Below are positions 12,037-32,987 of a stretch of DNA of 42,879 bases, in pieces. Position 1 is the first letter of the stretch. Every line of letters begins with the position of its first letter. A model generated the notes under the pieces. That model saw nothing but the letters and a program-made list of their open reading frames with translations, ran no database searches and was not told the origin of the DNA. Origin of the DNA: Clostridia bacterium (lineage in GTDB: Bacteria; Bacillota; Clostridia; JAQVDB01); assembly GCA_028698525.1 (NCBI GenBank), contig JAQVDB010000009.1, positions 1 through 42,879 on the forward strand. Reading direction: 5' to 3'. The position numbers and the translations under genes are program-made.

Positions 12037-12220
12037 ATAGGGAAAGCTAAACTTGGTTTAGGTTGCATATGATATCCAGTATTGCTGTATTTTAAAAGTA
12101 ACATCTTATTAAAATATCACATAAATCTATATTCCGTAGCAATACTATTCACATACATAGTAATATGTTATCATCTATTATGGAATGCATTCAACAAATG
12201 ATAAGATGAGGAGGCTTTTT

Positions 12221-13360
12221 GTGTCTGGGATAAATTTAATTGCTACTTCAACATTTGGATTAGAGGCTATAGTAAAAAGAGAATTGATAGCTCTTGGGTT
12301 TAATGATTTAAAGGTATCTGATGGAAAGGTGGAATTTACAGCAAATGAAGAAGCCATTCCCAAAACCAATATATGGCTTAGGTGTGCCGATAGAGTGCTG
12401 TTAAAAATGGGAGAATTTAAAGCGTTGAGCTTTGAAGAGCTTTTTGAAAACACCAAGGCACTGCCTTGGGATGAATGGATAACCGAAGATGGCAAGTTTA
12501 CTGTAATTGGAAAGTCGGTAAAATCCAAGCTGTTCAGTGTTCCTGATTGTCAATCTATCGTAAAAAAAGCAGTGGTAGAAAAACTAAAATCAAAGTACAA
12601 AAAACAATGGTTTGATGAGACAGGGCCGGAATTTACAATACAGGTTTCCATTTTAAAGGATGTAGCTACCTTGACTATAGATACAAGCGGTATCGGACTT
12701 CACAAAAGGGGTTATAGACAAAAATCAGTAAGAGCTCCATTAAAGGAGACATTGGCTGCTGCAATGATACAGTTGAGTTTCTGGAATAAGGATCGCCTTT
12801 TATTGGATCCATTCTGCGGTTCAGGTACAATCCCCATAGAAGCTGCCCTGATTGGTATGAACATAGCACCTGGGCTTAATAGACATTTTGCCTCAGAAAA
12901 CTGGCCCAGAATAGATAGTAAAGTATGGAAGAAAGTAAAAACTGAAGCCTTTGGTCTGATAGATTCTAATGTGGATTTGAACATATCAGCATCGGATATA
13001 GATCAAAAAGCTATTGAACTGGCATCTCAAAACGCAATAAACGCAGGAGTAGATTATTGCATCGATTTCAAAACCAAGTCTGTCTTTGATTTAGATGTAA
13101 ACAATGAGTATGGGGTACTTATATCTAATCCTCCTTATGGTGAACGAATAGGCAAAAAATCAGAAATAGAAAAAATATATAAAACTTTAGGTAAAAAATT
13201 CAGGTCTAAGGATACTTGGTCAGTTTATCTCCTTACCTCTGATGAAAGCTTTGAAAATATATATGGTAAAAAAGCTGATAGAAAGAGAAAATTATATAAT
13301 GGCAGGATAAAAGTAGACTATTACCAATATTATGGAAAAAAGCCTAATGATCAAAATTAA
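12221..13360 (+). CDS. THUMP-domain class I SAM-dependent RNA methyltransferase (YpsC/RlmL-like)
   Basis: A 379-residue protein resembling B. subtilis YpsC and the N-terminal part of E. coli RlmL, predicted to make N2-methylguanine in 23S rRNA. The start is GTG at 12221, because AGGAGG ends six bases ahead and GINLIATSTFGLEA then matches the family N-terminus; an upstream in-frame ATG at 12185 would add 12 unconserved residues. A THUMP domain occupies roughly residues 45-150. The SAM motif DPFCGSGTIPIEAA lies near 200 and the catalytic NPPYGERIG near 300. It is one of two confident plus-strand genes and converges on the ATPase, with which it shares the last bases. Confidence 0.88.
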   Translation: MSGINLIATSTFGLEAIVKRELIALGFNDLKVSDGKVEFTANEEAIPKTNIWLRCADRVLLKMGEFKALSFEELFENTKALPWDEWITEDGKFTVIGKSVKSKLFSVPDCQSIVKKAVVEKLKSKYKKQWFDETGPEFTIQVSILKDVATLTIDTSGIGLHKRGYRQKSVRAPLKETLAAAMIQLSFWNKDRLLLDPFCGSGTIPIEAALIGMNIAPGLNRHFASENWPRIDSKVWKKVKTEAFGLIDSNVDLNISASDIDQKAIELASQNAINAGVDYCIDFKTKSVFDLDVNNEYGVLISNPPYGERIGKKSEIEKIYKTLGKKFRSKDTWSVYLLTSDESFENIYGKKADRKRKLYNGRIKVDYYQYYGKKPNDQN

Positions 13361-13380
13361 TTTTGACCATTAGGCTTTTT
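13337..13380. terminator. Bidirectional terminator palindrome containing both stop codons
   Basis: A 44-bp near-perfect palindrome. The 13-bp outer arms (13337-13349, 13368-13380: AAAAAGCCTAATG and its inverse) are followed by one mismatched pair (A13350/C13367, a G-U wobble in the minus transcript), then TCAAAATT/AATTTTGA. The arms end in T-runs in both directions. The central TTAA (13357-13360) supplies the stop codons of both convergent genes. Confidence 0.9.
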
Positions 13381-15984
13381 AAACAATTTAACAATCTCCA
13401 TCATTATTAGAGGTATAATTGAATATATTACTACAATCATAATTTGATTTTTGGATAAATAAGCAAGTTCAAAAACTCCCCTTAAAAATGGTATAGCTAT
13501 TACTGCCAATACAAGCAGTGTAGATATAAAAATAGATGCTATAAGATATTTATTTGAAAATACTCCAATTTTAAATACCGATTTATCTATAGATCTCACA
13601 TCCAAACTATGTATCAGCTGAGATAAGCTTAAAGTAGTAAACGCCATTGTCCTGGCGATATCAATATTGTATTTTAGGCCTCTGTTGAATGCTAAAAGTG
13701 TCACACTGCCTATGATTATACCTTCTACTAAAATCATAACACCTAAACCTTGAGAAAATATGCTCTCCTTAGGATCTCTAGGTTTCCGCTTCATAATGTC
13801 TTGATATATAGGATCTACCCCCAGAGATAAAGCAGGTAGACTATCTGTTATAAGATTTATCCACAAAATATGTATAGGCAATAACGGGGCAGGCATGTTG
13901 AATAAAAGTGCAATAAATAATGTTATTATCTCTCCTATATTGCATGAAAGAAGAAAATGTATAGATTTCTTAATATTATCAAATATTCCTCTGCCTTCTT
14001 CCACAGCATCAACAATAGTAGCAAAATTATCATCTGTAAGTATCATATCAGATGCCTGCTTTGAAACATCTGTTCCAGTAATCCCCATAGCACATCCTAT
14101 ATCTGCACTTTTGAGGGCAGGGGCATCATTTACCCCGTCACCGGTCATGGCTACCACCCTTCCCTTACTCTGCCATGCTTTTACAATCCTTACCTTGTGA
14201 TGAGGTGATACCCGCGCAAATACTGAATGTTTGTGGATATTTTCAGAGAGCTGTTCGTCGGTCATCTTCTCAAGTTCAACACCGTCAACTGCTATATCTC
14301 CTGTTTTAAAGATACCTAGCTGCTCTGCTATTGCAACAGCCGTATTTTTATAATCCCCTGTGATCATCACAGGCTTTATCCCTGCCAGCCTGCACTTTTC
14401 CACTGCAAGTTTAACTTCTTCTCTAGGAGGATCGATCATCCCCATCATTCCCACGAATACCAAGTCATTTTCAGTATTTTCCGGGTTAATATCATCAGGT
14501 ATTACATCGATTTCTTTGTATCCCATAGCCAAAACGCGCAAAGCCTTTTGAGACATTTTATTATTCTGTTCCATTATTCTATTTTTGGTTTGCTGATCAA
14601 TAGTCAATATACCATCATCAGTTAAAACACGGCTGCATCTATCCAATAATACATCTAATGCTCCTTTTGTAAATACATAGTATTTATCTTGATAGGAATG
14701 TATTGTAGACATAAGCTTTCTGTCCGAATCAAAAGGTATCTCTTGTACTCTTCTTTTTATTTTCTCTTGTTCTTGTTTTACCAAGCCTTTTTTATAGGCT
14801 AAATCTAACAATGCTATTTCAGTAGGATCACCCACAGGTTCAGCCTGTATAGATGCATCGTTGCATAAAAGCCCGATATCTAACAACAATTTCTGGAGTT
14901 TATCCTGTATTCTTATTTCATTTATATCTTCCATTGGTGTATCATAAATGTAAGCAGCTGTCACTGTCATCTTATTTTGAGTCAAAGTTCCTGTCTTATC
15001 GGAGCATATAACAGATGCAGTACCCAATGTTTCCACTGCAGGCAATTTTCTTATGATTGCATTCTTTTTTATCATCCTCTGTACGCCAAGGGAAAGAACT
15101 ATAGTTACAATGGCAGGCAAACCTTCAGGTATAGCTGCTACCGCCAGGGAAACAGCCAACATAAACATTTCTAACATGTCTCTCCCCTGGAAAAAGCCTA
15201 CCAGAAATATTATGGCACAAACTGCAATAGCTACTAATCCTAACCATTTCCCCAGTTCTTCCAGTTTTATCTGTAAAGGAGTCTTTAAATTGTCTTCTTG
15301 TTCAATCATCTGGGCGATTTTGCCTATTTCAGTATCCATACCCGTTCCTGTCACAACTATCTTAGCTCTCCCATTAGTCACTAATCCTGTAGAAAACACC
15401 ATGTTTGCCATATCACCTAGGGGTATGTCTCTGTCCTGGATTACATCCTGGTGTTTTTGCACTGGAACTGATTCCCCTGTAAGTGACGATTCTTCAACCA
15501 TCAGATTAGAACATTCTACAATTCTACCATCGGCAGGTATAAAATCACCTGCTTCTAAAATAACAATATCTCCCGGTACTATATGTGTGGATTTAACTTG
15601 AATTGTGTTCCCATCTCTTATAACTTTTGCTGATGGAATTGACATATTCTTTAGCGCTTCAAGGGCTTTTTCCGCCTTATTTTCCTGTAGAACACCTAAA
15701 ACAGCATTTAAAACTACAATTGTTATAATAATTATGGTATCATTTAATTCTCCCAAAAACCCGGATATAACAGCAGCAATCAAGAGTATTATAACCATGA
15801 AATTTTTAAATTGGCTTAAAAACATATTTAAGATAGTAGTTTTTTTCTCACTCTTTATCTGATTATACCCATGCTCTTCTAATCTTTGCCTTGCTCGTTT
15901 ATCTCCCAATCCTCTTTCTTTATCTGATTTTAATGTTTCCAATGCTTGTTCAGCTGTATATCTATACCAGTATTTATCGCCCAT
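13357..15984 (-). CDS. Calcium-transporting P-type ATPase (SERCA-like P2A)
   Basis: An 875-residue membrane pump that probably exports Ca2+. The order is an N-terminal cation-ATPase domain, TM1-2 (about 55-100), actuator domain with TGES at 169-172, TM3-4 (about 245-300) with the P2-type ion-binding PEGLP at 286-290, phosphorylation motif DKTGTLT with D329, a nucleotide-binding domain, MTGDGVNDAPALKSADIG near 618, and six C-terminal TM segments including NLITDSLPALSLG. Substrate Ca2+ is inferred from the TM4 and TM6 motifs; Mn2+ is possible. It is 59 bases downstream of yerC, but a terminator and a fresh ribosome binding site (GGAGGAAGCG) separate them. Confidence 0.92.
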   Translation of the reverse strand: MGDKYWYRYTAEQALETLKSDKERGLGDKRARQRLEEHGYNQIKSEKKTTILNMFLSQFKNFMVIILLIAAVISGFLGELNDTIIIITIVVLNAVLGVLQENKAEKALEALKNMSIPSAKVIRDGNTIQVKSTHIVPGDIVILEAGDFIPADGRIVECSNLMVEESSLTGESVPVQKHQDVIQDRDIPLGDMANMVFSTGLVTNGRAKIVVTGTGMDTEIGKIAQMIEQEDNLKTPLQIKLEELGKWLGLVAIAVCAIIFLVGFFQGRDMLEMFMLAVSLAVAAIPEGLPAIVTIVLSLGVQRMIKKNAIIRKLPAVETLGTASVICSDKTGTLTQNKMTVTAAYIYDTPMEDINEIRIQDKLQKLLLDIGLLCNDASIQAEPVGDPTEIALLDLAYKKGLVKQEQEKIKRRVQEIPFDSDRKLMSTIHSYQDKYYVFTKGALDVLLDRCSRVLTDDGILTIDQQTKNRIMEQNNKMSQKALRVLAMGYKEIDVIPDDINPENTENDLVFVGMMGMIDPPREEVKLAVEKCRLAGIKPVMITGDYKNTAVAIAEQLGIFKTGDIAVDGVELEKMTDEQLSENIHKHSVFARVSPHHKVRIVKAWQSKGRVVAMTGDGVNDAPALKSADIGCAMGITGTDVSKQASDMILTDDNFATIVDAVEEGRGIFDNIKKSIHFLLSCNIGEIITLFIALLFNMPAPLLPIHILWINLITDSLPALSLGVDPIYQDIMKRKPRDPKESIFSQGLGVMILVEGIIIGSVTLLAFNRGLKYNIDIARTMAFTTLSLSQLIHSLDVRSIDKSVFKIGVFSNKYLIASIFISTLLVLAVIAIPFLRGVFELAYLSKNQIMIVVIYSIIPLIMMEIVKLFKKPNGQN

Positions 15985-32273: not shown

Positions 32274-32906
32274 ATGAATAAAGATAATCCTATCTGGAAA
32301 ACAGAAACAATTGCAGCTTTAAAGGATTTAGGCGGTGTAGCCCATTTAGATGATATTTTCGATAAAATTGCTGAACGTAATAATATTGATTTTTCCAATT
32401 CAAAAACCCCCAAAAAAACTTTAAGCAGAGTTTTACAAACATTTTCACAAAGTACAAAATATGGTATTGATAATACTTTCTATTGTTTTTATGGTGTCTC
32501 TGAACGAAAAGGTGTTTGGGGGTTAGTAGACAACAACATTCCAAATGATGAACCATCATATACACAAGAAGATGATTGTTTTATAGAAGGTAGAAAAAAG
32601 TTACGACAGCATATCATATGTGAACGAAATCAACAATTAATAAAAAGTGCTAAACAAAGGTTTAAGGATGCACATAATAACAATATATTTTGTGAAGTAT
32701 GCGGATTCGACTTTTATAAAGTATATGGGAAATTAGGCGAAGATTTTATAGAGGCGCATCATATAAAACCTGTTTCTGAAATGAAAGATAATGAAAAAAC
32801 GGATATAAATGATATTGTAATGGTATGTTCAAATTGTCATAGCATGATACATAGAGAGCGACCTTGGTTAACAAGAGAAACACTGAAAACAATCCTCAAT
32901 AAATAA
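32274..32906 (+). CDS. HNH endonuclease with N-terminal winged-helix domain
   Basis: A 210-residue probable nuclease. Residues about 6-88 look like a winged helix of the HARE or Mrr-N type (WKTETIAALKDLGG near 8, KTLSRVLQTFS near 48, VWGLVD near 81). The C-terminal half is an HNH domain: zinc cysteines C140, C143, C185, C188; catalytic AHHIKPV with H162-H163; and CHSMIHR with H189 and H193. This architecture is common in orphan restriction-like nucleases. No methyltransferase or partner gene is beside it. AT-rich base composition, opposite strand and the adjacent excisionase relic suggest acquisition by transfer. Confidence 0.82.
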   Translation: MNKDNPIWKTETIAALKDLGGVAHLDDIFDKIAERNNIDFSNSKTPKKTLSRVLQTFSQSTKYGIDNTFYCFYGVSERKGVWGLVDNNIPNDEPSYTQEDDCFIEGRKKLRQHIICERNQQLIKSAKQRFKDAHNNNIFCEVCGFDFYKVYGKLGEDFIEAHHIKPVSEMKDNEKTDINDIVMVCSNCHSMIHRERPWLTRETLKTILNK

Positions 32907-32939
32907 TTCTGTTATCAAGACGTTATCACCGCACAAAAA

Positions 32940-32980
32940 AAGGACCACAAACCCACATGAATACTGGGTTTGTAGTCCTT
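32940..32980. terminator. Bidirectional terminator between HNH and guaA
   Basis: Arms AGGAC-C-ACAAACCCA and TGGGTTTGT-A-GTCCT pair over about 14 bp with one interruption (a G-U wobble in the minus transcript). The minus strand continues TTTTTTT, so it ends guaA; the plus strand continues TTTTG and could end HNH transcription. Confidence 0.88.
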
Positions 32981-32987
32981 TTGTCTC

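Follow-up and report, generated by a model that had tools for sequence, protein, structure and literature searches.

A near-perfect palindrome encodes the ends of two convergent genes and is predicted to terminate transcription in both directions in a Clostridia bacterium

Introduction

Bidirectional intrinsic terminators are pervasive between convergent genes, as the work of Ju et al. (2019, Nat Microbiol) is represented in PMC8060035 and PMC7566282. In B. subtilis, a short distance between stop codon and terminator accompanies uncoupled transcription, with RNA polymerase running ahead of the ribosome (PMC7858274, PMC12207403), and the Bacillota have been classed as runaway at the phylum level (PMC13323073). 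Terminators of B. subtilis, Listeria and Enterococcus typically have an A tract ahead of the hairpin (PMC12207403). E. coli ribosomes repress a terminator almost completely when it lies only a few bases from a stop codon (PMC4824070).

Here we describe a convergent junction from the Clostridia bacterium assembly GCA_028698525.1 (contig JAQVDB010000009.1, positions 1-42,879; this stretch of 42,879 nucleotides is referred to as the window), which is very probably an extreme case of the known bidirectional intrinsic terminator overlapping gene ends. A single palindrome encodes the C-terminal tails of both converging genes, an arrangement of which a limited literature search yielded no description.

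Results

Two convergent genes share a 44-bp palindrome

The plus-strand gene (12185-13360), assigned from its domain matches, encodes an RlmL-type rRNA methyltransferase of 391 residues that ends in ...YYGKKPNDQN. Its product combines RlmL ferredoxin-like, THUMP and UPF0020 domains, as expected of an RlmL-type 23S rRNA methyltransferase; it scores under the RlmKL equivalog cut-off, matching model positions 4-381 of 704, with the RlmK half absent. The minus-strand gene (13357-15984) encodes a calcium-transporting P-type (IIA) ATPase of 875 residues, ending in ...EIVKLFKKPNGQN, which exceeds the curated cut-offs of both TIGR01522 (813.2 bits; cut-off 798.3) and TIGR01116 (704.8 bits; cut-off 703.4). 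The two ORFs overlap by four bases, TTAA, which contain both TAA stop codons. In the second convergent pair of the window (gene ends at 32906 and 32988), a terminator-like hairpin of the ordinary bidirectional kind, at 32938-32982, is entirely intergenic.

Centred on the overlap is a near-perfect palindrome of 44 bp (13337-13380), whose arms, folding and comparison with simulated sequence point to a bidirectional intrinsic terminator stem. The arms (13337-13358 and 13359-13380) are 22 nt each and 95% complementary, forming 21 of 22 possible pairs with no spacer. The central TTAA (13357-13360) is at once the hairpin loop, the 4-base convergent overlap and both stop codons. The sole unpaired position, 13350 (partner 13367), falls in the codon that reads GAT on the plus strand and GGT on the minus strand, producing an Asp/Gly difference between the proteins, an A.C mismatch in the plus-strand RNA and a G.U wobble in the minus-strand RNA. 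When 3 Mb of sequence with matching composition was simulated by a first-order Markov model, the top zero-loop score was 17/22 pairs and 21/22 was never attained; a chance origin of the 44-bp palindrome is excluded. The genome contains a single copy of it.

Other zero-loop palindromes with at least 21/22 pairs are present in the same genome, on contigs L146 (~5369), L165 (~5404), L163 (~11113) and L139 (~17641). The first of these shows no mismatch over 52 bp or more and lies between co-directional genes; as it lacks a clear U tract, it is perhaps something other than a simple terminator.

The palindrome is predicted to fold as a terminator-like hairpin on both strands

The plus-strand RNA hairpin has a predicted free energy of -20.9 kcal/mol (z -7.1) and contains a 1x1 internal loop at the A.C mismatch, while its minus-strand counterpart reaches -24.5 kcal/mol (z -7.8). 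The latter, on the ATPase side, is unbroken and stronger because the 13350/13367 pair is G.U in that RNA and A.C in the other. None of 200 shuffled sequences folded as well as the native one, on either strand. A U tract follows the stem directly, encoded by T5 on the plus strand and T6 on the minus strand, with A5 and T5 tracts flanking a GC-containing core. The junction therefore carries hairpin and U tract on both strands, the sequence signature of a bidirectional intrinsic terminator, and the stem begins 19-24 nt ahead of the end of each gene. An Rfam scan of the palindrome returned sub-threshold matches alone, as for any hairpin.

Symmetry and reading frame account for the mirrored tails

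The left arm (13337-13357, plus strand) encodes the methyltransferase tail KKPNDQN through the codons AAA AAG CCT AAT GAT CAA AAT TAA, and its A tract doubles as the U tract of the minus-strand transcript. The right arm (13360-13380, minus strand) encodes the ATPase tail KKPNGQN through AAA AAG CCT AAT GGT CAA AAT TAA and also supplies the U tract of the plus-strand transcript (TTTTT, 13376-13380). A sequence-only reading of the window had described this palindrome, its TTAA centre supplying both stops, its one asymmetric pair and the two near-identical tails; coordinates, symmetry and codons all hold. It had further held that one sequence serves as two terminators, two stop codons and two protein tails, of which the stops, the tails and the anatomy of opposed terminators stand, with termination itself a prediction from sequence.

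The tails are alike because each gene runs into the palindrome from its own side and both do so in one frame, a point that the earlier reading leaves out. Such a palindrome is identical on both strands, and same-frame entry must therefore spell the same residues and the same stop. The three frames across it read KA*, with a stop in the left arm, KSLMIKINFDH*, with a stop in the right arm, and the frame in use, which stops at the centre. Given that both genes enter the palindrome, agreement in frame is a 1-in-3 event. The look-alike tails are thus a by-product of symmetry and frame and not a sign of special function.

Comparison with family members reveals two ordinary C-termini. Past the conserved VDYYQYYG, the methyltransferase tail comprises seven residues against a median of six in 58 relatives; proline occupies the third place in 56 of these and Lys or Arg the second in 53, so that the KP within KKPNDQN is family consensus. 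The ATPase tail, counted after query residue 865 from the conserved lysine 866, comprises ten residues, equal to the median of 27 relatives (range 6-15), among which its sequence varies freely. At the position corresponding to the ATPase arm, [K/R]P is found in just two of the 27. KPN is absent from the tails of all 58 methyltransferase relatives, one of which alone ends in QN (PPPPFQN), and neither KPN nor a QN ending occurs in the 27 ATPase tails. The alignment of C-termini proposed earlier as a check for tails exceeding the usual ends thus finds no excess in either protein, and the idea of tails noteworthy in their own right is not supported, their lengths being family-typical, the methyltransferase KP consensus and the likeness a consequence of palindrome and frame. 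With their lengths ordinary, the ATPase tail variable and KPN absent from relatives, we propose that the terminator sits in two tolerant C-termini, each an unconstrained tail of family length that would accommodate terminator codons.

Terminators abut or invade gene ends across the genome

We surveyed 1.085 Mb of contigs, about half of the genome, with a simple ORF-based gene caller. Among 62 convergent pairs, 50 lie within 150 bp, and 30 of these have a junction with a strong palindrome. Of these 30 palindromes, 21 contain one stop codon or more and eight contain both, as mirror copies in four of the eight. The mirror copies extend over 24/24 nt at the window junction and over 7/7, 6/6 and 6/6 nt elsewhere in the genome, and Tissierellia records contain three further mirror-copy junctions (3/3 nt in one and 5/5 nt in each of the others, which look like one locus represented in a pair of related records). 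Of the symmetric cases sampled, the window junction reaches deepest. In the other mirror-copy pairs of this genome (L154:17031-17062, L162:4446-4480 and L163:6596-6632), the stops lie at the base of the palindromic terminator.

The wider set of 153 gene ends bearing terminator-like hairpins in the same genome places the start of the G-C-closed stem at a median of 5 nt past the stop, with 18% of stems beginning inside the coding sequence. The corresponding medians are 18.5 nt in four higher-GC members of the class and 16 nt in 50 kb of E. coli, a comparison that is indicative only, as GC contents differ and the terminator rule is our own. Tissierellia loci of similar GC also give a median of 5 nt, so that the short distance is a lineage-wide habit. 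Terminators that touch the end of a gene or reach into it are common in this AT-rich clostridial genome.

The gene pair is confined to this genome among those compared

Adjacency of the methyltransferase and the ATPase was absent from 60 relatives, 291 genomes of the class, 398 genomes of the phylum and 50 contig loci. The comparison of the junction in related genomes, suggested earlier as a check, therefore found the gene pair in none of them, and a case in which both proteins keep these tails without the palindrome was not seen. As the pair is absent from the relatives compared, with the present genome as the only representative of its order in the comparison sets, the junction looks lineage-specific, and the gene pair and its shared palindrome seem to be products of this lineage. 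The gene following the methyltransferase in many relatives starts with M[ST]IYTKTGDKG, which we take to be the start of an ATP:cob(I)alamin adenosyltransferase; this family (PF01923) has no match in the present genome, which is 97% complete. A similar palindrome in genome G029 was considered as a coding counterpart and rejected, being a separate terminator 20-odd nt past the stop of a different gene.

Discussion

The junction is best explained as a bidirectional intrinsic (Rho-independent) terminator set deep in both genes, with its arms translated; we place the probability of this reading at roughly 0.86. RNA polymerase arriving from either side would transcribe the stem, the hairpin would form, and transcription would end in the U tract, probably ~18-23 nt beyond each stop codon. 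Each mRNA would thereby be complete and neither polymerase would enter the opposing gene. The ribosome, arriving later, would melt the stem and stop in the loop. Such a mechanism can work because RNA polymerase in the Bacillota usually outruns the ribosome, leaving the forming hairpin uncovered; for this species, we infer uncoupling of transcription and translation from its phylum and from the short stop-to-stem distances of its genome. If the species instead couples the two processes, the terminator would be weak, since E. coli ribosomes repress stop-proximal terminators. Also speaking against the terminator reading are the A.C mismatch in the plus-strand hairpin and its T tract of only five residues followed by AAA.

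Two routes could have produced the palindrome. Selection may have favoured a terminator both strong and compact, or template switching may have evened out the arms of an imperfect inverted repeat. In the second, a replication template switch would have homogenised a chance imperfect repeat, copying one arm together with its KKPN codons from one gene to the other, with the terminator role acquired later or reinforced. We regard this origin as possible but doubtful; it is compatible with the terminator explanation and concerns origin. Template switching is known to create and repair hairpin stems, to homogenise the arms of inverted repeats and to alter codons in coding DNA (PMC8794818, PMC8604942), and the 21/22 complementarity of the arms spans codons as well as the loop. 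The genome also has other zero-loop palindromes with 21 or 22 pairs. The family alignments suggest a direction for such copying, from methyltransferase to ATPase, as [K/R]P is native to the former (P in 56/58, K/R in 53/58) and rare in the latter (2/27). The methyltransferase arm could accordingly be the older of the two, a weak hint, because two ATPases also have [K/R]P there. Against this origin, the same junction exists in no relative compared, hence there is no before-and-after comparison, and selection for a strong terminator predicts the same outcome. That one template switch made the two-way terminator, the shared stops and a peptide transfer between unrelated proteins in a single event appears unlikely.

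Far less probable is that the palindrome, instead of being a terminator, acts at the DNA level as a cruciform, a site for protein binding, a mobile element or a repeat. Long zero-loop palindromes lacking clear T tracts do exist elsewhere in the genome, as at ~5369 on contig L146, but the window palindrome is single-copy, belongs to no Rfam family at gathering score and sits where two convergent genes end, its A/T tracts arranged as in a terminator, like most palindromes at junctions of this type. Selection of the mirrored tails as a protein feature, for instance with KKPN(D/G)QN as a signal common to both proteins for degradation, interaction or localisation, would account for a near-identical heptapeptide at both ends but deserves almost no credence and was rejected on the tails of relatives, given that KPN is missing from all of them, that symmetry alone yields the identity and that both lengths are ordinary.

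Taken as a single case, the bidirectional terminator proposed here is a tidy curiosity; its value is as the extreme point of a genome-wide pattern of terminators at gene ends, in which convergent pairs of an AT-rich clostridial genome often use one palindrome for both. The locus also offers a clean natural test of uncoupling outside Bacillus, since stops placed in the loop should permit termination only if polymerase outruns the ribosome.

The junction resembles short 4-nt convergent overlaps in that both TAA stops overlap at TTAA; to our knowledge, such overlaps usually have no palindrome reaching into both genes. With the bidirectional terminators of Ju, Li and Liu (2019), as portrayed in the sources that relay them, it shares convergent genes and one hairpin, flanked by an A tract and, opposite it, a T tract, that could serve both strands; unlike those, it holds its whole stem within two coding sequences, has stop codons for a loop and is a predicted terminator. 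The very short stop-to-stem distance, a genome-wide tendency here, recalls the terminators of runaway Bacillota (Johnson et al. 2020, as conveyed by PMC7858274 and PMC12207403), which in those accounts lie a few nucleotides downstream of the stop, whereas the present stem starts 19-24 nt before the gene ends. Coding inverted repeats, known from Nematomorpha mitochondrial genes (PMC6649704) and from template-switched repeats in yeast (PMC8604942), likewise encode protein in both arms; those repeats are embedded within genes, whereas the arms described here are read in the sense direction in two convergent genes, and the hairpin that they form is a predicted terminator.
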